Source of the DNA: a virus
Strand: one strand, 5' to 3'
DNA length: 24,545 nucleotides
IMG/VR virus record: IMGVR_UViG_3300050821_003827
Span: 1 to 24,545 of that record
Shown here: positions 10,432-23,946 of the stretch, piece by piece
How positions within the stretch are numbered: position 1 is the stretch's first letter
Layout of the letters: every line of letters starts with the position of its first letter
Program-made: the position numbers and the translations under genes
Notes under the pieces: generated by a model
The model's input: only the letters and a program-made list of their open reading frames with translations
Database searches by the model: none
Told to the model about the DNA's origin: nothing

Positions 10432-10507
10432 TGGGGCAGCCGGGGTGAGTCGAACACCCTTTGAACGCTTTAGAGGAGCGCCACATAATCCGTTCTGTCA
10501 CGGCTGC
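10432..10507 (-). tRNA. tRNA-Arg(TCT), loop CCTCTAA
   Basis: Acceptor GCAGCCG/CGGCTGC, anticodon stem GCGCT/AGCGT, T-arm GGGTG-TTCGACT-CACCC, encoded CCA. C at position 33. The stop codon of the upstream HNH frame (10498) lies inside this tRNA. Confidence 0.9.
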
Positions 10508-11301
10508 AAACTGGTGCAAGCGGAGGCGCTCGAAGCCCCATCCTGAGATTTAAAAGATCTCTGCTCGTCCTCTTGAGCTACGCTTGCGAAACGCTTCTTT
10601 TTGGTACCACAATGCCAATCATCTAGCATTCCCAACTTCTGTGCTTTTCTCAACCCAGGAACCAATAACATCCACGCCTCATAAGGCATGTCGCGACGGA
10701 AATAATTACACCTGTAACAAGCTGGAACCACATTCATTTTAATGTGACCCCTCTTGTTATCGATTCTATCGAGGGTCATCATCAATTGGGTTTCGGCACA
10801 GTAAGAGCATGGGCGCACGATCAATGCTTCAATGAATTCTCTGTCAAGGTCGTTATCTAGCCCACGTTTCTTATCGCTGCGCTGCGAATCTCGCATGATG
10901 TACGTAGCCCTATTATTCCTGTCGGCTCTTCGAAGCGCTGCTCGAACAGCACGATCACTACTTACTTCAGGGCTCCTTTTTCCGCGTGGAAATCGTTTTT
11001 TGTATTCAACCTCGCAATCCCTGCACAAGAAGCGCCGATAATAGCGGTTGCCTTGCTTCTTAATCGCAAATTCAACTTCAGGTTCACCTTTACCGCATAC
11101 TTTACATTTGTGAATTTTGCGAGGTGTCTTATCGTGTTCCCGAACATATTCACAATGCTTTTCCCGATTTGCCTCATACCAACGATGACTATACTCAGTA
11201 GTGCATTCTCTACACCAAGGCTGTTTACCGTCTTTTTGGCGACTGTTCGCGTTAAAGTTCTCGTCTTCACGATACTTCTTGCAGCGATTACAGTATCTCA
11301 T
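10498..11301 (-). CDS. HNH homing-type endonuclease running into tRNA-Lys
   Basis: The 267-aa frame starts at ATG 11301. Two N-terminal zinc-ribbon units (YCNRCKKYREDENF... WCRECT and HKCKVCGK... LCRDC) precede a basic helical region and an HNH core, CSYCAETQLMMTLDRIDNKRGHIKMNVVPACYRCN. The nuclease ends near residue 236; the remaining 30 residues are encoded by tRNA-Lys and part of tRNA-Arg(TCT), because no stop precedes the tRNAs. Cutting by RNase P would leave a stopless message. It is probably a mobile endonuclease inserted between tRNA genes. No good ribosome site is seen. Confidence 0.85.
   Translation of the reverse strand: MRYCNRCKKYREDENFNANSRQKDGKQPWCRECTTEYSHRWYEANREKHCEYVREHDKTPRKIHKCKVCGKGEPEVEFAIKKQGNRYYRRFLCRDCEVEYKKRFPRGKRSPEVSSDRAVRAALRRADRNNRATYIMRDSQRSDKKRGLDNDLDREFIEALIVRPCSYCAETQLMMTLDRIDNKRGHIKMNVVPACYRCNYFRRDMPYEAWMLLVPGLRKAQKLGMLDDWHCGTKKKRFASVAQEDEQRSFKSQDGASSASACTSLQP
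10512..10587 (-). tRNA. tRNA-Lys(TTT)
   Basis: Acceptor GCAAGCG/CGCTTGC, D-stem GCTC/GAGC, anticodon arm GAGAT-CTTTTAA-ATCTC, T-loop TTCGAGC, encoded CCA. The 3' part of the HNH frame runs straight through it. Confidence 0.93.
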
Positions 11302-13236: not shown

Positions 13237-14028
13237 TCATGCACCAACCAATTCTTCGCTCTTACTTTTGCGATAGTCTCTCATCGCCTTAGCCCTTGCG
13301 TCTTTGCAAACATCGCATCGACAACCGTGATACGAATATGCAGACGATGTTCCGTGTGTGACCATTCCGCGCGGTAATAAGTTCGGCGTGGTCAAGGTGT
13401 CTTCCAATGTCCATCCATTCTGTATTCGCACAAGAATAGTAGACTTATGAAGCCCTAGTTTTCTTGCCCATTCGACAACCGGGAGAGTTACATCACCAAA
13501 CGTCAAATTGATCGTAGAAGACCTATTCTGCGCCTGTTCTCGTTTCGTAGACCACTTACAATTCTCAGGAGAATACCCTTTTGAGCCATCAACACGATCA
13601 ATCGTGTGTTGAGGAGTAGGCTTCCGCCCCATGTCACTCAGAAACGTTTCATAGGAATGGAGCCATTTATCGCAGACTGTTATACCAACCGCTCCATATC
13701 GCAAGTAGCTGGCACTTTGCGGTTTGAGGCATCTTTCTTTCATTGAAATCCAACTCCTATATTCCGAGGTTGGATGTTTGGACTCTCCGTGAACCAACGG
13801 AAAACATTCACTATTGCCCGGTTGTTCGCGCCTCAAACAACCACACGATTTGGAATGGCCTCTTCGCAGCATCTTAGGTGTTTCAAATTTCCGATTGCCG
13901 CAATCACAAAGACATTCAACCACTCCCTGATTGCGTCCTCCGAGCTTCATCATCTGAAGCTCGGAGATAACAGTCCATTTTCCGAATCGCTCACCCAGCG
14001 ACACTGTATGCAGTCTTAGTGGATGCAT
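13237..14028 (-). CDS. AP2/HNH-type homing endonuclease with C-terminal zinc module
   Basis: The 263-aa product starts at ATG 14028 behind AAAGGGGA. Its N-terminus has a cysteine module (CLCDCGNRKF... SCGCLRRE). The core EYRSWISMKERCLKPQSASYLRYGAVGITVCDKWLHSYETFLSDMGRKPTPQHTIDRVDGSKGYSPENCKWST matches the 12115 paralogue. After a helix-turn-helix, the C-terminus is a separate zinc unit, HGTSSAYSYHGCRCDVCKDARAKAMRDYR. Its start overlaps the end of the Ro60 gene by 38 bases, as expected for a mobile gene placed against a host gene. It is probably an active DNA-binding nuclease. Confidence 0.85.
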   Translation of the reverse strand: MHPLRLHTVSLGERFGKWTVISELQMMKLGGRNQGVVECLCDCGNRKFETPKMLRRGHSKSCGCLRREQPGNSECFPLVHGESKHPTSEYRSWISMKERCLKPQSASYLRYGAVGITVCDKWLHSYETFLSDMGRKPTPQHTIDRVDGSKGYSPENCKWSTKREQAQNRSSTINLTFGDVTLPVVEWARKLGLHKSTILVRIQNGWTLEDTLTTPNLLPRGMVTHGTSSAYSYHGCRCDVCKDARAKAMRDYRKSKSEELVGA

Positions 14029-15508
14029 TGGTCCCCTTTATGGACGTGAGTACATCGCTCAAGCTAAGAAGCGGTGTGCTCAATATTTCGTCACATAAAG
14101 AATACTGATTAGATCGCAATGTGGCAACTGTATTCGGCAGAGAATAGTAGTCCACCGCACCACGACGCAGATCGAACGTGGTCATCTCGATTCCAGCCTG
14201 CTGCATCCGTGCCGACAGGTAGTCCGGGTCTCCCGCCAACTGGTAGAAGTACACCGGGACGTCCTTGTCGATCATCTTCGCGTACTTCTTATATACGTCT
14301 GCAAAGTACGGTGCGTGGCCCTCGCCGCCGTCCGAGATGATGGCGATGCCATCGACCTCAGTCTTCTCGACAAGGAGCCGGTTCAAACCGCAGCCAATGG
14401 ACGTTCCACCACCAGCGCTGATGTGCTGCGTCGCCTTCTTGATCTGATCGAGCGACGAGCCGGTCACTTCCACCGACATCGGAGCCGTATCGAAGAACAC
14501 CAGCCAGACCTTACCCTTCACGTACTGGGCAAGAGTTGCGGAGACGTGCCGCGAGATCTCGATAGCGTCACGCATGCTACCGCTCTTGTCGGCCAAGACC
14601 AGCCAGTTGCCGTCCGGTCCGCCTGCCGCCGCGATCTGCTTCGCCTGTACTGCGCGGAGCTTGTCCTTCAAGCCTTCGTCATCGACAGCATCGATAGCCG
14701 CAGTCGTCTTCAGCGTGGTCTGCTTGGACGTGGCCACCTTCTTCAGTCCTTCCTCGAAGGCCGCGCGCAGCGCCGGGTTGGTCTTCATACCCAGCTTCTC
14801 TAACATCTTCACGTTGGTCTGCAACTCGGTCGCCGACATGCGCGCCATCAGTGCCAGCACGAGATCGGTGTCCTTTGCCTTGGCACCCAGAGCGCCCATG
14901 GCGATCAGAAACGGGATCTTGTATTTCGAGATCGCGCCCGCCGCCTCAACCGGTGCCATGTCCTTCAGGTGAGCAACCACCTCAAAGACACTGCCCTTCG
15001 GCAACGGAGCCTTGGTCTTGTCGAAATTGCGACCGTACAGCACGACGTTGGTACGCTCCTTCTCCGGCTTCGCGTGCGCAAGGGCATAAAGCTCTTTCAG
15101 TGTGCTACGGTGCTGTACTGCGAGATGGTCCCAGCCGCGATCCTGCTCCTTCTGGTGAAGATATCCCTCCACCAACCGGCGAAGCTGCCGCATCTTACCC
15201 GGCAACCGCAGTTCCAGAGCAAACCTGTAGGCACGCGCCAACTCGCGCGGTCCCAAGAGAGCAATATGCGCCAGCGAGTTGTCCGCCAGTTCGGCGTCCT
15301 TCTCGTAGGCAAGGCCGATGACCGGCAGCGCTACCTTGCTGTCGCGAACCTGGCCATGAGTGCGATCCCACGCAATCAGGTGCTGGAAGAACTCGCCTTC
15401 CTGTAGGACGGCCTTGAGGCCGATGTCGAGGTACTCCTTGAGAGCACCGTGAGATGACTTGGAAAGTTCAGCGACGATACGCTGACGTGTTACGCCCTGC
15501 TCTGCCAT
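13991..15508 (-). CDS. rsr: Ro60 / Rsr-type TROVE-vWA RNA-binding protein
   Basis: The 505-aa product starts at ATG 15508 (GGGAGG nine bases upstream; an in-frame ATG at 15517 is too close to it). The N-terminal two thirds are HEAT-like helices of the TROVE domain (EYLDIGLKAVLQEGEFFQHLIAWDR... RFALELRLPGKMRQLRRLVEGYL). The C-terminal part is a vWA domain with a complete MIDAS: LADKSGSM (about residue 310), GGGTS, and ISDGGEGH. Ro60 proteins are rings that hold misfolded RNA ends and bind Y RNAs, which can link them to PNPase. The gene is markedly richer in G+C than its neighbours. Upstream on the same strand lie an endonuclease VII gene and six tRNA-like RNAs that are candidate Y RNAs. Confidence 0.92.
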   Translation of the reverse strand: MAEQGVTRQRIVAELSKSSHGALKEYLDIGLKAVLQEGEFFQHLIAWDRTHGQVRDSKVALPVIGLAYEKDAELADNSLAHIALLGPRELARAYRFALELRLPGKMRQLRRLVEGYLHQKEQDRGWDHLAVQHRSTLKELYALAHAKPEKERTNVVLYGRNFDKTKAPLPKGSVFEVVAHLKDMAPVEAAGAISKYKIPFLIAMGALGAKAKDTDLVLALMARMSATELQTNVKMLEKLGMKTNPALRAAFEEGLKKVATSKQTTLKTTAAIDAVDDEGLKDKLRAVQAKQIAAAGGPDGNWLVLADKSGSMRDAIEISRHVSATLAQYVKGKVWLVFFDTAPMSVEVTGSSLDQIKKATQHISAGGGTSIGCGLNRLLVEKTEVDGIAIISDGGEGHAPYFADVYKKYAKMIDKDVPVYFYQLAGDPDYLSARMQQAGIEMTTFDLRRGAVDYYSLPNTVATLRSNQYSLCDEILSTPLLSLSDVLTSIKGTNASTKTAYSVAG

Positions 15509-15534
15509 GGTGTTCATCCTCCCGTGATGAAAAG

Positions 15535-15975
15535 TTAGGCCGCTTTACTTTTATGCCGTCTTAGGTACTCAATGGCGCACAACAAATTTTCTTCATCGTC
15601 CATAAATAACCCTAGAGCGCAATTACAACGCTGGCATAGAAAACCTCTAAATTTTCCGGTTTCGTGATCGTGGTCCCACTGAAATCCTTTTGAAGTTGGA
15701 CCACATCCACAAATCTCGCATACCTGAACCGACTTCTTTGCCTCGCGCCTTTTCTTAGATTCAGACGTGGCCCAATATGGCGACTCACCATCCTTGGATT
15801 TACGAATTCGACTACCGGTACGCTTCTGCCCCTTAAACCTATTTTCGGCAAGAGAACAAGCAAAGCGCATCCCTCGGTTTTTCTTCTTGACGCGCACTAG
15901 ACCACAATGGGCACATTCACCCATCATTGCGTTTTCGTCCACGTTGATTATTTTGTGAATTCGTTGACCACGCAA
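15535..15975 (-). CDS. Recombination endonuclease VII homologue
   Basis: The product is up to 146 aa. The core VCEICGCGPTSKGFQWDHDHETGKFRGFLCQRCNCALGLFMDD is diagnostic of the endonuclease VII family (T4 gp49): zinc knuckle, DHDH, TGKFRG, LC-x2-CN, ALG. An extra zinc pair is at CAHCG. Members resolve branched DNA, or act as homing nucleases when free-standing. The start is probably TTG 15975 with AGGA upstream, directly after RNA unit 6; an internal ATG at 15927 is possible. It separates the RNA array from the Ro60 gene, and all are on one strand. Confidence 0.88.
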   Translation of the reverse strand: MRGQRIHKIINVDENAMMGECAHCGLVRVKKKNRGMRFACSLAENRFKGQKRTGSRIRKSKDGESPYWATSESKKRREAKKSVQVCEICGCGPTSKGFQWDHDHETGKFRGFLCQRCNCALGLFMDDEENLLCAIEYLRRHKSKAA

Positions 15976-15993
15976 GGCGTCTTCCTTTTGTTG

Positions 15994-16105
15994 ACGGGGA
16001 ACCCCGGTTTTGAGCCGAGATTACCGAGCCGAAGCCCGATTAAGCATGTATCCAACGACAGTGAGCATTTCTGCTAAGTCGTTTGGAACCTCTTAGGTTC
16101 CCCGT
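15994..16105 (-). ncRNA. tRNA-like RNA unit 6 (acceptor-open form)
   Basis: 5' ACGGGGAACC pairs with 3' GGTTCCCCGT. In order come a degenerate D region, a stem CCAA(A)CGAC/GTCGTTGG closed over an AGCA-GAAA-TGCT hairpin in the anticodon-arm position, the shared GGATACATG, a variable arm GGGC-TTCG-GCTC, and a T-arm-like hairpin CTCGG-CTCAAAA-CCGGG. No CCA is encoded. It is directly upstream of the endonuclease VII and Ro60 genes. Confidence 0.6.
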
Positions 16106-16113
16106 AACTTTAT

Positions 16114-16236
16114 GGCGTTAAGGCTTGCTGGATGTTTACGCGTGCTGCCGCTGCACCACGAGAAGCTAGGCTTCTCGGCGGGATTCGAACCCGCGTCTCG
16201 GTCGCCAAAGGACATGTACCCAACAAAATAAACGCC
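16114..16236 (-). ncRNA. Permuted tRNA-like RNA unit 5 (Y-RNA-like)
   Basis: The ends pair (GGCGTT/AACGCC, then GTTGG/CCAGC). Inside, order is GGGTACATG, T-arm GCGGG-TTCGAAT-CCCGC, acceptor-like stem CGAGAAGC/GCTTCTCG closed by only CTA, then D-arm GTGC-AGCGGCA-GCAC. So T-arm precedes D-arm and the acceptor has no free end: a circularly permuted tRNA body on a long stem, as in tRNA-mimicking bacterial Y RNAs. Confidence 0.7.
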
Positions 16237-16243
16237 AATCTAG

Positions 16244-16364
16244 TGGAGCCGGGTGCTGGAGTTGAACCAGCGTGTTCAGGACTATGCGACCTGTGCATGT
16301 ATCCACTTGGGTTATACGGTTGCCCGTAAAGGTGCTAGTGGCGTTACCGTTTTGCTAACCCGGC
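16244..16364 (-). ncRNA. tRNA-like RNA unit 4 with CCA, anticodon arm replaced
   Basis: 121 nt. Acceptor GCCGGGT/ACCCGGC with discriminator T and encoded CCA. After a D-loop-like GCAAAACGGTAACGC comes a stem CCACT/AGTGG closed over an ACGG-GCAA-CCGT hairpin, then GGATACATG, a CAGG/CCTG variable arm, and a T-arm GCTGG-TTCAACT-CCAGC. No normal anticodon arm can be formed. Confidence 0.65.
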
Positions 16365-16372
16365 TCATCTTA

Positions 16373-16493
16373 TGGTGGAGGGCCTGCGATTCGAACGCAG
16401 TAGAGTTACAACCAAATGTTACTCTTTGCCATGTAGCCAAGAAAAGTGTCCGTCGAAACGGAAAGTCGATCTCGGTTTGTTTTTTAGCCCCCC
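16373..16493 (-). ncRNA. tRNA-like RNA unit 3 with CCA, anticodon arm replaced
   Basis: 121 nt. Acceptor GGGGGGC/GCCCTCC, discriminator A, encoded CCA. No D-stem (AAAAACAAA instead). Stem CCGAGA/TCTTGG encloses a TCCG-TTTCGA-CGGA hairpin, followed by GGCTACATG, a long variable arm AGAGT/ACTCT and T-arm CTGCG-TTCGAAT-CGCAG. Same plan and same length as unit 4. Confidence 0.65.
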
Positions 16494-16503
16494 ACAACTT
16501 AAT

Positions 16504-16639
16504 GGGTTGAAGTCTCTCAGGTAGCATCCCTTTCGGGAATGCCTGATTTGAAGTCAGGTGCCTAACCATTCGGCTAATTCACCTCACGGTGAATCTTGGA
16601 TTCGAACCAAGATAACATGTAACCTGAAACGTACAACCC
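16504..16639 (-). ncRNA. Permuted tRNA-like RNA unit 2 (Y-RNA-like)
   Basis: 136 nt. Long closing stem: GGGTTG/CAACCC, then GTTTCAGGT with ACCTGAGAGAC. Inside: GGTTACATG, T-arm CTTGG-TTCGAAT-CCAAG, acceptor ATTCACC/GGTGAAT closed by GTGA (a GNRA loop), TA, D-arm GCC-GAATGGTTA-GGC, a full anticodon-like arm CCTGA-CTTCAAA-TCAGG (TCA in the anticodon place), then a TCCC-GAAA-GGGA hairpin. A whole tRNA body in permuted order with no free acceptor end. Confidence 0.75.
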
Positions 16640-16658
16640 AAACTTATTGCGTCAAGAC

Positions 16659-16759
16659 GTTGAGCGATTCCCTTTCGGGAACGGAATCGGAATTGAACCG
16701 ACTACCCTCAGATTACAAGTCTGATGCTCTACCAAATGAGCTATCCATGTACGCTCAAC
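16659..16759 (-). ncRNA. tRNA-Thr(TGT)-like RNA unit 1 on an extra stem
   Basis: An eight-base-pair end stem GTTGAGCG/CGCTCAAC is followed by TACATG, then a standard tRNA body (D-stem GCTC/GAGC, anticodon arm TCAGA-CTTGTAA-TCTGA, T-arm GTCGG-TTCAATT-CCGAT) and a TTCCC-GAAA-GGGAA hairpin before the 3' stem strand. The acceptor can form only about GGA/TCC, no CCA is encoded, and a normal tRNA-Thr(TGT) exists at 18330. It could be a degenerate tRNA, but the shared TACATG and GAAA hairpin put it in the array. Confidence 0.55.
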
Positions 16760-16867
16760 AATAGACGCAAACTCAAAAACTCTCAAAGAACTTTCTTGGG
16801 CCTGAGCCCAACTTCACAACTCTACATCAGTTTCGCGATGCGCGCAATTAAAATCTGCGCTTTTTTA

Positions 16868-16946
16868 TGGAAGGGCTGACAGGACTTGAACCTGCTACCT
16901 CCGAGTTCGTAGCTCGGCGCTCTCTATCCAGATGAGCTACAGCCCC
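16868..16946 (-). tRNA. tRNA-Arg(ACG)
   Basis: Acceptor GGGGCTG/CAGCCCT, D-stem GCTC/GAG, anticodon arm CCGAG-CTACGAA-CTCGG, T-loop TTCAAGT, encoded CCA. Between it and unit 1 (16760-16867) there is no gene; two hairpins are seen (TTGGGC/GCCCAA and GCGCA/TGCGC, the latter followed by T6 on the plus strand). Confidence 0.93.
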
Positions 16947-18430: not shown

Positions 18431-18982
18431 CTAGTGCAGCACGTACTGAAATCTCGTGTCACCCGTACTGTCATTCCATAAATACGGGGCCCACGCATTG
18501 ATTTCTGCGCCGAGCATTTTCAAGATAAATCGCGGCGTATGGATACTTGAAGGCAGCGGCTTATGAATCAGTTTCATTCCAGCTTCTTCCGGCGTCATAT
18601 CGCGCTTCTTCTGATTACACGACCTGCATGCCGAACAGAGGTTGTCCCACGATGACAAACCGCCACGGCTTCGCGGGTAAATGTGCTCAAGTTCGAGCGT
18701 CACCTTCGAAGCAGGAGCGCCGCAGTACAGACACTTGAAACCGTCTCTCGTGAAAATATTTCTCCGTGACGGAATCGGTCTTTTGTGCGGTACCTTGGCA
18801 TAATGGCGCAATCTGATCACGCTCGGCAGGAAGATATGCGGATAGACTTGAATGTTGGTTGACACTTCAGTCGTCGCAATACCTTTCGTGATCAACGTCA
18901 ACGCCTTTTTTGCGCTGATAATTCTGAGTGCTTCTAGTGAGGCGTTGAGTTGCAGCACTGGTTGTTTCATCAGATTTGCCAC
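18431..18982 (-). CDS. HNH endonuclease of the common phage/bacterial family
   Basis: The 183-aa product starts at GTG 18982 behind GGAGG. The N-terminus VLQLNASLEALRIISAKKALTLITKGIA is the family's leading domain; the nuclease is RRNIFTRDGFKCLYCGAPASKVTLELEHIYPRSRGGLSSWDNLCSACRSCNQKKRDMTPEEAGMKL, with both zinc pairs, the catalytic EH and the Asn present. Its leader contains the second GGYNN pentamer tract and a 13-bp palindrome, so it is expected to be specially regulated, unlike the other HNH genes. Confidence 0.92.
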   Translation of the reverse strand: MANLMKQPVLQLNASLEALRIISAKKALTLITKGIATTEVSTNIQVYPHIFLPSVIRLRHYAKVPHKRPIPSRRNIFTRDGFKCLYCGAPASKVTLELEHIYPRSRGGLSSWDNLCSACRSCNQKKRDMTPEEAGMKLIHKPLPSSIHTPRFILKMLGAEINAWAPYLWNDSTGDTRFQYVLH

Positions 18983-19884: not shown

Positions 19885-20673
19885 TTATTTCCATTTTTTG
19901 TTTGGATCGGACGTTCTTGTCGGTATCGGGCGGCGCGGAGCAGCAGGCTTGGCTGGAATACCGCCACTATGCGGAATACGGCTTGTCACAGTACCAACGC
20001 CAACAGTTTTATCGTCGTCATCAGCGGTCTTCATTCCAACAGATGCGCGCATTGACCGAGTGGTATTTTCACTCATGAAGCTGCGCGATCCTGATGCTTG
20101 TGCTCTTCCCATACTCATGGTCGCCGCTGCCATAGTGGCGTAAGTTGCATGTGCGTTGTTCGCATTATAGGAAGCAGATGCACCAACACCTATACCCAGA
20201 GACTGCGCGTCATCCCATGTCTCCGGCTGTGTGCCGAGATATGTAAACGTCCAGTTGCCTCTTTTCACGCGCTCGTCAATTGCAGAGTGTAGCGCATCCT
20301 TTGACCACTCGCGGCTGGAGTTCTCCTGTCCATCGGTGACGATCACAACAATGGCCTTGTCAAAGGTCAGCGACTTGTTGTCGTCAATAGCCTGCAACGT
20401 CTTTCCGACAGCATCATAGAGAGCGGTTGCGTTTCTTGGGCCATGCTTCTTGAGGATCGTTCCATCTACGTTCGCGATCTTATCGCCGATATGCGGGGTT
20501 TCGATCACGGTGTCAAATGTGGTCAACGAGAACAAGTACTCAATCTCGTCATCTTTCTTTTCGTCCGCTTGCAGATTCTCGACATAAGTCTTGAATCCGT
20601 TAAGCGTCTCATCCCACACCGTTGCCATACTCCCCGACCGATCCTGAATAAATGAAACAAGAACCTTCTTCAT
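19885..20673 (-). CDS. vWA-domain protein (MIDAS intact)
   Basis: The 262-aa product starts at ATG 20673 (GGAG six bases upstream; ATGA overlap with the HTH gene; the longer frame is unlikely). The vWA domain begins at once, MKKVLVSFIQDRSGSM, with the other MIDAS parts at ATALYDAVG and IVTDGQENSSREWS. After residue 160 comes a small helical part rich in Ala, Met and Ser, then a proline- and arginine-rich disordered tail (AKPAAPRRPIPTRTSDPNKKWK). Such phage vWA proteins are common and unexplained. Its coupling to a regulator is notable, and it is the second MIDAS protein in the window besides Ro60. Confidence 0.85.
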   Translation of the reverse strand: MKKVLVSFIQDRSGSMATVWDETLNGFKTYVENLQADEKKDDEIEYLFSLTTFDTVIETPHIGDKIANVDGTILKKHGPRNATALYDAVGKTLQAIDDNKSLTFDKAIVVIVTDGQENSSREWSKDALHSAIDERVKRGNWTFTYLGTQPETWDDAQSLGIGVGASASYNANNAHATYATMAAATMSMGRAQASGSRSFMSENTTRSMRASVGMKTADDDDKTVGVGTVTSRIPHSGGIPAKPAAPRRPIPTRTSDPNKKWK

Positions 20674-20882
20674 CTCCATCTCCTCTTGACATAAATTTTT
20701 GTGACCGTGGTTTGGCACTCAAGATCGAGATGGTCAAGCAGCTTTGGTCCGGGCTCGCGTTTGTCGCTGTACACATCGCTTAGATAAGCAGCAGAACAGC
20801 CTATTGTCTTTGCATAAGTACGCAGAGAACGAGTCCCCTGCTTCTCCCGGAGTTTCTTGATTACATCCTCTTTGCGCCACAT
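20670..20882 (-). CDS. XRE/Cro-type HTH regulator, apparently leaderless
   Basis: The 70-aa product carries a helix-turn-helix of the lambda-repressor class: RSLRTYAKTIGCSAAYLSDVYSDKREPGPKLLDHL. There is no ribosome site. The promoter TTGACA-17-TACAGT places the transcription start on the A of ATG 20882, so the message should be leaderless, like lambda cI from PRM. Its size and form suit a Cro-like repressor. It is coupled to the vWA gene. A possible target is the 13-bp palindrome family, one copy of which lies 106 bases upstream, but this is inference. Confidence 0.8.
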   Translation of the reverse strand: MWRKEDVIKKLREKQGTRSLRTYAKTIGCSAAYLSDVYSDKREPGPKLLDHLDLECQTTVTKIYVKRRWR

Positions 20883-21611: not shown

Positions 21612-21685
21612 TGGTACTCCCGACGAGATTTGAACTCGCACCAAGTGGGTTAGGGCCACCTACTCTGCCATTGAGCTACGGGAGT
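21612..21685 (-). tRNA. tRNA with anticodon CTA (putative amber suppressor)
   Basis: Acceptor ACTCCCG/CGGGAGT, D-stem GCTC/GAGT, anticodon arm GGTGG-CCCTAAC-CCACT, T-arm GCGAG-TTCAAAT-CTCGT, encoded CCA. By canonical counting bases 34-36 are CTA, which would read UAG. Position 33 is C. Confidence 0.75.
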
Positions 21686-23418: not shown

Positions 23419-23946
23419 CTACATCATCTCTCGTGCCTCATCTGTTGTCAACCTGCTCCATCGTACTACCAATTCTCCATCTTTTACCACAAGATGGCGA
23501 CAGACATGGCAATTCCAACAGAGTGTTATTTTATTGTCTCCATTATTGGAGTTACGATCTCCATTACGATGATGAACCACAAGAAGATAATAGCGAGATT
23601 CGCCGCATTCCTCACATTTATCTCCTATTGAATTACGGTAGCAAGATTTTCCATTCGTATATTGCGGATGATTTTCTCCCCATCGCTGCTGTCTTTCAAC
23701 ATTGTCTTGCGCTGCGCATCGTTTTGAACAGAATTGAAGTCCACTCTTGCTATTCTTTAGCCTCGACGGGCTTCTCTTCGCAATCTTCCCACATCTGTGG
23801 CAAATAATGGAATGCGATTCTTTTACCATCACACATTTGTGACTGCAATAGGTACGAAAATTTCCTCCGCCTATTCTGAAATCCTTAATGGGGCGTTGGA
23901 ACATTTTCTCGCATGTGTAGCATCTGAGATTAAGTATCGTAGCCAT
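23419..23946 (-). CDS. HNH homing endonuclease with zinc ribbons
   Basis: The 175-aa product has three N-terminal zinc units (LRCYTCEKMF... YCSHKC; IICHRCGKIAKRSPSRLKNSKSGLQFCSKRC) and a C-terminal HNH core, KCEECGESRYYLLVVHHRNGDRNSNNGDNKITLCWNCHVCRHL. It is an intact paralogue of the frameshifted gene at 17459-18060 (same knuckle order, NSKSGL-FCS, VHH-x2-GDRN). There is no ribosome site at ATG 23946; TATATT five bases earlier hints at a leaderless message. The gene is flanked on both sides by tRNAs (Asp and Met), a typical homing position. Confidence 0.87.
   Translation of the reverse strand: MATILNLRCYTCEKMFQRPIKDFRIGGGNFRTYCSHKCVMVKESHSIICHRCGKIAKRSPSRLKNSKSGLQFCSKRCAAQDNVERQQRWGENHPQYTNGKSCYRNSIGDKCEECGESRYYLLVVHHRNGDRNSNNGDNKITLCWNCHVCRHLVVKDGELVVRWSRLTTDEAREMM
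23423..23451 (-). promoter_or_regulatory. Promoter of tRNA-Asp inside the HNH gene end
   Basis: TTGACA (23451-23446), 17-base spacer, GATGAT (23428-23423). The predicted start is about three bases before the mature tRNA 5' end. Confidence 0.6.

Follow-up and report, generated by a model that had tools for sequence, protein, structure and literature searches.

We describe an array of six structured RNAs encoded upstream of a Ro60-like gene in a soil phage, and consider it likely, at a probability of roughly 0.8 judged from sequence, that they form an expanded Y RNA set read by the phage's own Ro60. The DNA analysed is virus record IMGVR_UViG_3300050821_003827, 24,545 nucleotides (24.5 kb), and 'the window' denotes this whole stretch. 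The array lies on the minus strand between a tRNA-Arg gene (16868-16946) and the endonuclease VII/Ro60 gene pair. Each unit carries the hexamer TACATG once (16045-16050, 16213-16218, 16296-16301, 16430-16435, 16616-16621 and 16746-16751), embedded as GGNTACATG in five units and as GCGTACATG in the one at 16746. The window as a whole holds 11 copies against 8.4 expected, which is not rare (26 of 100 shuffles were equally high); the six on one strand within 707 bases, where 0.12 are expected, are clustered far beyond chance. The initial annotation had proposed a same-strand array of six elements at this place, each with a single hexamer, alike in five, directly after one strand of a helix. All of this was recovered, with the helix strand preceding the hexamer in all six units and hexamer coordinates that prove right within 4 bases. 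Its suggestion of an expanded phage Y RNA set gains support as well, with binding by Ro60 itself as a prediction.

Hand reading together with a pairing-only search yielded one plan for all six units. The 5' strand of their shared core comprises helix 1, a loop starting UA or CA, helix 2, zero or one base and then UACAUG; the returning strand comprises helix 2, a loop ending CUU and helix 1. In the three open units (1, 2 and 5) the ends of the RNA form helix 1, as in the Y RNA YrlA (RF02553). In the three closed units (3, 4 and 6) this same stem is a hairpin capped by UUCG, GCAA or GAAA, and the core sits as a hairpin inside a tRNA-like RNA. The closed topology is a circular permutation of the open one, which suggests that tRNA arms have been reshuffled in this way into adapter RNAs.

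Unit 1 (16645-16772; folding z score -5.95; all units are on the minus strand) runs through helix 1, the loop (UAUUG versus GUCUU), helix 2, UACAUG, D-, anticodon- and T-like arms and a GAAA hairpin, and is found by a covariance model, R1, that was trained without the window (E value 2.8e-6). Its inside (16677-16750) is called tRNA-Thr(TGT) by ARAGORN, an example of how some phage 'tRNA' calls may not be tRNAs. Unit 2 (16503-16640; z -5.44) has its tRNA parts in permuted order, with the core, UACAUG and a T-like arm followed, by hand drawing, by a hairpin, D- and anticodon-like arms and a GAAA hairpin. Unit 5 (16113-16237; z -3.27), made of the core, UACAUG, a T-arm, a closed hairpin and a D-like arm, is the closest of the six to YrlA and gives the window's best score with that Rfam model, 32.9 bits, below the gathering cut-off of 69 bits. 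The related locus L073 also stays below this cut-off, its segments 1126-1190 and 970-1043 scoring as YrlA with 36.8 and 31.2 bits. The ends of unit 3 (16372-16495; z -4.59) pair as a tRNA-like acceptor helix, with CCACCA at the 3' end, and its UUCG-capped core hairpin precedes UACAUG, a hairpin and a T-arm. Unit 4 (16244-16366; z -3.74) combines an acceptor-like helix, a core hairpin capped by GCAA, UACAUG, an anticodon-like hairpin and a T-arm, and unit 6 (15994-16105; z -5.63) an acceptor-like helix, a GAAA-capped core hairpin, UACAUG, a UUCG hairpin and a T-like arm.

The units are 112-138 bases long with z scores of -3.3 to -6.0, and for each of them none of 200 dinucleotide shuffles folded as well. 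When drawn by hand, all six contain a T-arm or T-like arm and five have a GNRA or UUCG cap, the exception being the unit at 16213; both features agree with the initial annotation, to which we add the shared internal loop with its CUU side, the two topologies and the tRNA-Thr call inside the unit at 16746. Minimum-energy folds retain both core helices, yet miss some of the hand-drawn tRNA-like arms: no clear D- or anticodon-like arm is seen in units 2 and 4, and the internal loop of unit 6 is partly paired. The array also gives weak matches to other Rfam families (snoRNA, RAGATH-25, plastid and tmRNA), which were rejected.

The protein predicted to read these RNAs is encoded at 13991-15517 on the minus strand (508 amino acids), and fold and profile matches point to a HEAT-repeat ring with a VWA domain. 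With its predicted model (mean predicted local distance difference test score 74, predicted template modelling score 0.58), Foldseek placed Ro60 or TROVE entries of the PDB at all of ranks 1-13, at 12-18% identity in the alignments. Structural Z scores were 15.6-19.2 for ten Ro60 entries, including 19.2 for human Ro60 and 18.8 for Deinococcus Rsr, against 12.8 for the next entry, which is of VWA type. The metal-ion-dependent adhesion site (DxSxS...T...D) corresponds to D310, S312, S314, T372 and D396, invariant in 39 of 39 sequences of our phage Ro60 alignment (A4, from which locus L072 was excluded). A profile of 39 phage sequences matches the Ro60 of Thermus phage phiLo (E value 2.6e-5) and human Ro60 (1.1e-4), and PHROG 850, 'RNA-binding protein', matches the window protein at 6.7e-11. 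Pfam TROVE (PF05731) was not listed for the window protein at an E value limit of 10, a limit rarely reached given that HMMER filters discard most matches above about 0.1; only VWA models were. When the phage profile was compared by hhalign with one bacterial TROVE protein, the two aligned over the VWA part only. Judged by its modelled fold, the window protein is Ro60-like, not a Pfam TROVE member. In a hand-counted profile alignment, of modest accuracy in this region, phage H148 corresponds to human H187 and R137 to R174; we take K170 and R174 to have roles in Y RNA binding by vertebrate Ro60. The mouse H187S mutant of Ro60 does not bind Y3 RNA (PMC11277228).

Protein searches retrieved 68 viral loci, at identities down to 27%, and one contig of an Acidobacteriaceae metagenome-assembled genome (MAG), the MAG with the L026 array. 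A set of 50,697 phage records yielded only LR756511 (29% identity) and a partial match in KX853510. Thirteen near-copies or fragments, recognised from match tables, were dropped (L009, L013, L014, L041, L043, L044, L049, L052, L059, L062, L067, L069 and L070), and the window was added, giving 58 loci, or 56 without the distant TROVE loci L017 and L076; these two and sites too close to locus ends were left out of the pairing and loop-sharing counts. An array zone with at least two TACATG was present in 50 of the 56 loci, mostly upstream of Ro60, but downstream in L065 and about 5 kb upstream in L073. Y-like units are thus encoded near Ro60 in the window and its relatives; one count of this proximity covered 17 loci and the window. 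Cores with the loop triplet CTT, CTA or CAC accompany 126 of 215 TACATG in the array zone, versus 8 of 91 elsewhere on the Ro60 strand and 8 of 102 on the other strand, and further phages use CAT, TTT, CTC, CGC, ATC, TCT, TCC or CCT. The core is linked to this clade of Ro60 genes.

We recognised 137 units in 37 loci, 120 open and 17 closed. A GTTCRA T-loop is found in the module of 72 of the 120 open units; random 75-nucleotide segments of the same loci contain it in 90 of 1060 cases. In 19 open units, 40 nucleotides or fewer lie beyond the handle, as we call the two-helix core. Loci that seemed poor, such as L030, L046, L047, L056 and L058, are completed by units in which the core is followed by UACACG. 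No clear array was seen in L042, L066 or L068; L055 has a single core, with UACAUA, and the L072 array is doubtful. The distant TROVE loci L017 and L076 were searched and lack an array, and in the huge phage LR756511 we found weak YrlA-like matches and TACATG without cores, but no array. A scan of the viral collection for ACTG..TACATG..T-loop returned 32 stretches, 22 of them in contigs known to hold Ro60. One more, L214, is a real array, including a unit with UCCAUG, on a contig with no Ro60 in the 35.5 kb present, its last unit ending 99 bases before the contig end; no array was recognised in the other nine. An array kept without a Ro60 gene, which the initial annotation had named as refuting its proposal, has no clear case in these 32 stretches. 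When 101 relatives of the Acidobacteriaceae MAG were searched with a covariance model there was no match, which is uninformative, as the MAG with the L026 array was equally silent. Pfam TROVE proteins occur in 17 of 200 genomes of that MAG's class, and eight short TROVE loci of the class (L236-L243) have only 0-2 TACATG per strand. A distant TROVE-like protein (L228; a 553-amino-acid open frame) is encoded on a 116-kb viral contig, G002, the contig of L203.

The helices of the core are specific to their own sites. At 212 TACATG sites in 53 loci the median pairing score was 32.0, compared with 23.0 when the 5' strand was swapped with that of another locus (636 swaps; P = 1.7e-46) and 24.4 when it was swapped within the locus (209 swaps). 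The helices also covary, as the initial annotation had wished to see checked: in 26 mini units (alignment A3, 29 short units minus three without the GANNN loop) the covariation score was 0.724, versus 0.219 shuffled and at most 0.334 when slid, and cells with double changes numbered 98 versus 36.5, in a test biased toward structure by the choice of mini units by pairing. A strict hexamer-free search for two helices and a known loop triplet found 44 cores in 26 loci on the Ro60 strand and none on the other, followed by UACAUG in 36 cases, UACACG in seven and UACAUA in one; since the triplets were learnt from UACAUG units, this search is independent of the hexamer, not of the triplets. The conserved form is UACAYG rather than GGNUACAUG. 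The earlier proposal took hexamer and helix together as the Ro60 site; the likelier site is the two helices with their internal loop, and the hexamer lies just beside them. We considered UACAUG as a dimerisation site through its CAUG. In 43 chosen loci, among them 11 controls without arrays, model R1 made 63 matches at an E value of 0.05 or better, all on the locus plus strand and 21 of them training rows, with none in the 11 control sources. A loose pattern, GACTT..ACT..GGNTACATG, hit at least 119 stretches and was judged too loose.

The three loop bases adjoining helix 1 are mostly common to the units of one phage and different between phages. At 134 of 209 sites (50 loci with at least two sites) the triplet is the commonest of its genome, compared with a mean of 35.5 and a maximum of 40 in 20 shuffles; at least two units share a triplet in 37 of 56 loci, and at least three in 24. 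Gene conversion is an unlikely cause, because the helices differ among the units of one phage. This pattern also bears on whether the units could simply be permuted, split or decaying tRNA genes, with the shared helix an intron-like or processing element and Ro60 incidental. The units do sit in a tRNA cluster, some are called tRNA by ARAGORN and Rfam, an acceptor-like helix persists in the closed ones, and CCACCA forms the 3' end of unit 3. Such an origin would leave unexplained why loop bases are common within genomes when helices are not and why arrays stay near Ro60 despite changes of order (L065 and L073), and mini units are too short for tRNA; we regard it as very improbable.

Given that the units of a phage mostly share loop bases, we asked whether Ro60 diverges with them, using genome loop labels set by hand for the scans, the H148 comparison and the tree, and pooling CTT with CTC in the scans. 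Among Ro60 pairs matched for overall divergence, those with different triplets show an excess at residues 141-165 (0.17-0.21; 0 of 300 permutations), and in a second scan 0 of 200 permutations scored as high as the real labels. The permutations ignore the tree and fake labels also score, so this test is lenient and it is the location of the peak that carries support. With CTA left out the top window is 141-160; with CTA and CAC left out it is 161-180, then 141-160. The divergent segment surrounds H148, the H187 equivalent. This residue is R throughout the CTA group (four of four phages), in the CCT phage and in L042, one of the loci with no clear array, and S in the CGC phage. The KP that follows H148 is KA, ER or KR in three TC-loop phages (a post hoc remark). 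In a Ro60 tree made by a quick method, with many weak forks, CAC needs to have arisen twice (L011; L019 with L021) and CTA once. A residue hunt in three loop groups gave 19 loop-specific positions, all at 67-170, and was set aside in favour of the divergence scans, since three of the four CAC-specific residues are common to CTA and the CTA ones may be clade marks. That a segment of Ro60 diverges along with the three loop bases is supported but not proved. We infer that Ro60 reads the internal loop and that the two-helix core is its likely site. The core could instead be a shared signal for another protein, such as an RNase or an antiterminator: loop sharing implies a single reader for all units, whose identity is correlative. 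The excess divergence falls in the Ro60 segment with the equivalents of H187 and R174, Ro60 being the one gene scanned, and makes a different reader improbable.

Several observations pull the other way. When fake labels are assigned within the CTT/CTC phages, the three splits give peaks at 36-55, 101-120 and 171-190; for the first and for the last, which lies close to the real peak, just 5 and 8 of 200 permutations were as high. Three CTT/CTC phages (L034, L051 and L056) have D or R in place of H148. The triplet differs from its genome's commonest at 75 of 209 sites, and CTT and CTC are mixed in L035, L071 and L075. One of the five covariation measures on alignment A3, the number of pairs with a double change, is unexceptional (12 of 12, versus 10.6 shuffled; 56 of 500 as high). 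Model R1 misses the other five window units, so that the family partly rests on our own core finder. To our knowledge, the permuted form, seen in three of the six units, is known from no described Y RNA. RtcB adjoins Ro60 in some bacteria; this RNA ligase is encoded in only 1 of 22 related contigs (G039, the contig of L073, 29069-30151), and, contigs perhaps being incomplete, a phage-encoded RtcB partner is not general there. The vertebrate Y RNA site, a 7-bp helix that bears a single bulged C and an opposite 3-nucleotide bulge (PMC4726728), is absent, the loop here having several bases on both sides.

Relatives keep the arrangement, and differences in the handle go with differences in the protein; this suggests a separate set of Ro60 adapter RNAs for each phage. 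In the mechanism we propose, each unit would consist of a handle, with helix 1, an internal loop of approximately YACU versus GANNN, helix 2 and UACAYG at its top, and an effector part of tRNA-like arms in various orders. The Y-like RNAs would gate the Ro60 ring, as for bacterial Ro60 and YrlA, and their tRNA-like parts may tether it to other RNA enzymes or substrates, so that one ring with interchangeable adapters could deal with structured or damaged RNA during infection. That such phage-specific adapters arose by circular permutation of tRNA parts, with the loop bases a private key coevolving with Ro60, seems to us close to an even bet; if it is true, each ring would accept the RNAs of its own phage but refuse those of its host and of competing phages.

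By analogy, the adapter role is the most likely function of the units, though we hold it tentatively, a little short of even: in D. radiodurans a Y RNA tethers Rsr to PNPase (PMC7790460, PMC8394870). Its main rival, which concerns function and leaves the identity of the units as Y RNAs untouched, is that Ro60-bound Y RNAs act mainly as decoys, their tRNA-like parts occupying host anticodon nucleases or other tRNA-binding defence proteins and Ro60 serving as a stabilising holder. The window carries 27 ARAGORN tRNA calls, it has been proposed that phages use their tRNAs against tRNA-cutting defences (PMC10264068), a competitive-inhibitor role has been suggested for YrlA (PMC7790460), and the anticodon-like loops of tRNA-called units vary among relatives (TGT, TCA and AAT). 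On the other side, the 19 open units with at most 40 nucleotides beyond the handle are too short for a tRNA and unit 5 has no anticodon-like arm; we consider decoys unlikely, and prefer the adapter role.

Between array and Ro60 lies an endonuclease VII-like gene (15535-15975, minus strand), a neighbour that probably does not belong to the system. HNH or endonuclease VII genes recur among the tRNAs of the window (10498-11301, 13237-14028, 15535-15975, 18431-18982 and 23419-23946), perhaps as homing elements of the tRNA cluster. Two tRNAs on the minus strand (10432-10507 and 21612-21685) have a CUA, amber-reading, anticodon; 3 of the 16 open reading frames checked end in TAG, and despite these tRNAs wholesale recoding of TAG is not evident. 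A protein of unknown function encoded at 19885-20718 on the minus strand (PHROG 7371, E value 2e-36; no Pfam match) contains DRSGSM, resembling a VWA metal site.

In our searches of the open literature, no title or abstract start among those listed describes Y RNA arrays or the UACAUG motif, although mention in Chen 2014, Sim and Wolin 2018, Wang 2018 or Sim 2020 is possible. A survey of jumbo phages records TROVE proteins in a small subset of phages (PMC7824862), and a report of a Vibrio phage with a Ro60-like protein cites reports of YrlA in phages (PMC7765460). As of 2020 the functions of bacterial Ro60 and Y RNA had been studied only in Deinococcus radiodurans (PMC7790460). With handles of one plan and differing effectors, the 137 units amount to a natural mutagenesis, on both sides, of the presumed Ro60-Y RNA contact, and the clade makes two questions testable: what a bacterial or phage Ro60 reads in a Y RNA, and what the tRNA-like part is for.

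Compared with known systems, the window protein resembles Ro60, Rsr and the phiLo Ro60 (PDB 9l5y) in its HEAT ring and VWA fold, and differs from them in its low Foldseek identity and in having no listed Pfam TROVE match. A TROVE gene is found in 20 of 29 archaeal tRNA gene clusters (PMC6333295); those lie on archaeal chromosomes, not in phages, and Y RNAs are unmentioned in the available part of that source. The units share with vertebrate Y RNAs their nature as stem-loop RNAs; there Ro60 binds through a distorted helix, here binding is predicted, and unlike the vertebrate RNAs these place a larger internal loop between their two helices and carry tRNA-like effector parts. YrlA, of Salmonella and other bacteria, resembles the three open units in its two-helix stem formed from the ends, and resembles the array in its tRNA-like T- and D-arms, in a gene near Ro60 and in the ACUU that the RF02553 consensus shows in the 3' strand of the internal loop. 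Unlike YrlA, the phage RNAs come as several units per genome, place UACAYG after helix 2, carry a YACU/GANNN loop and include permuted and mini forms.

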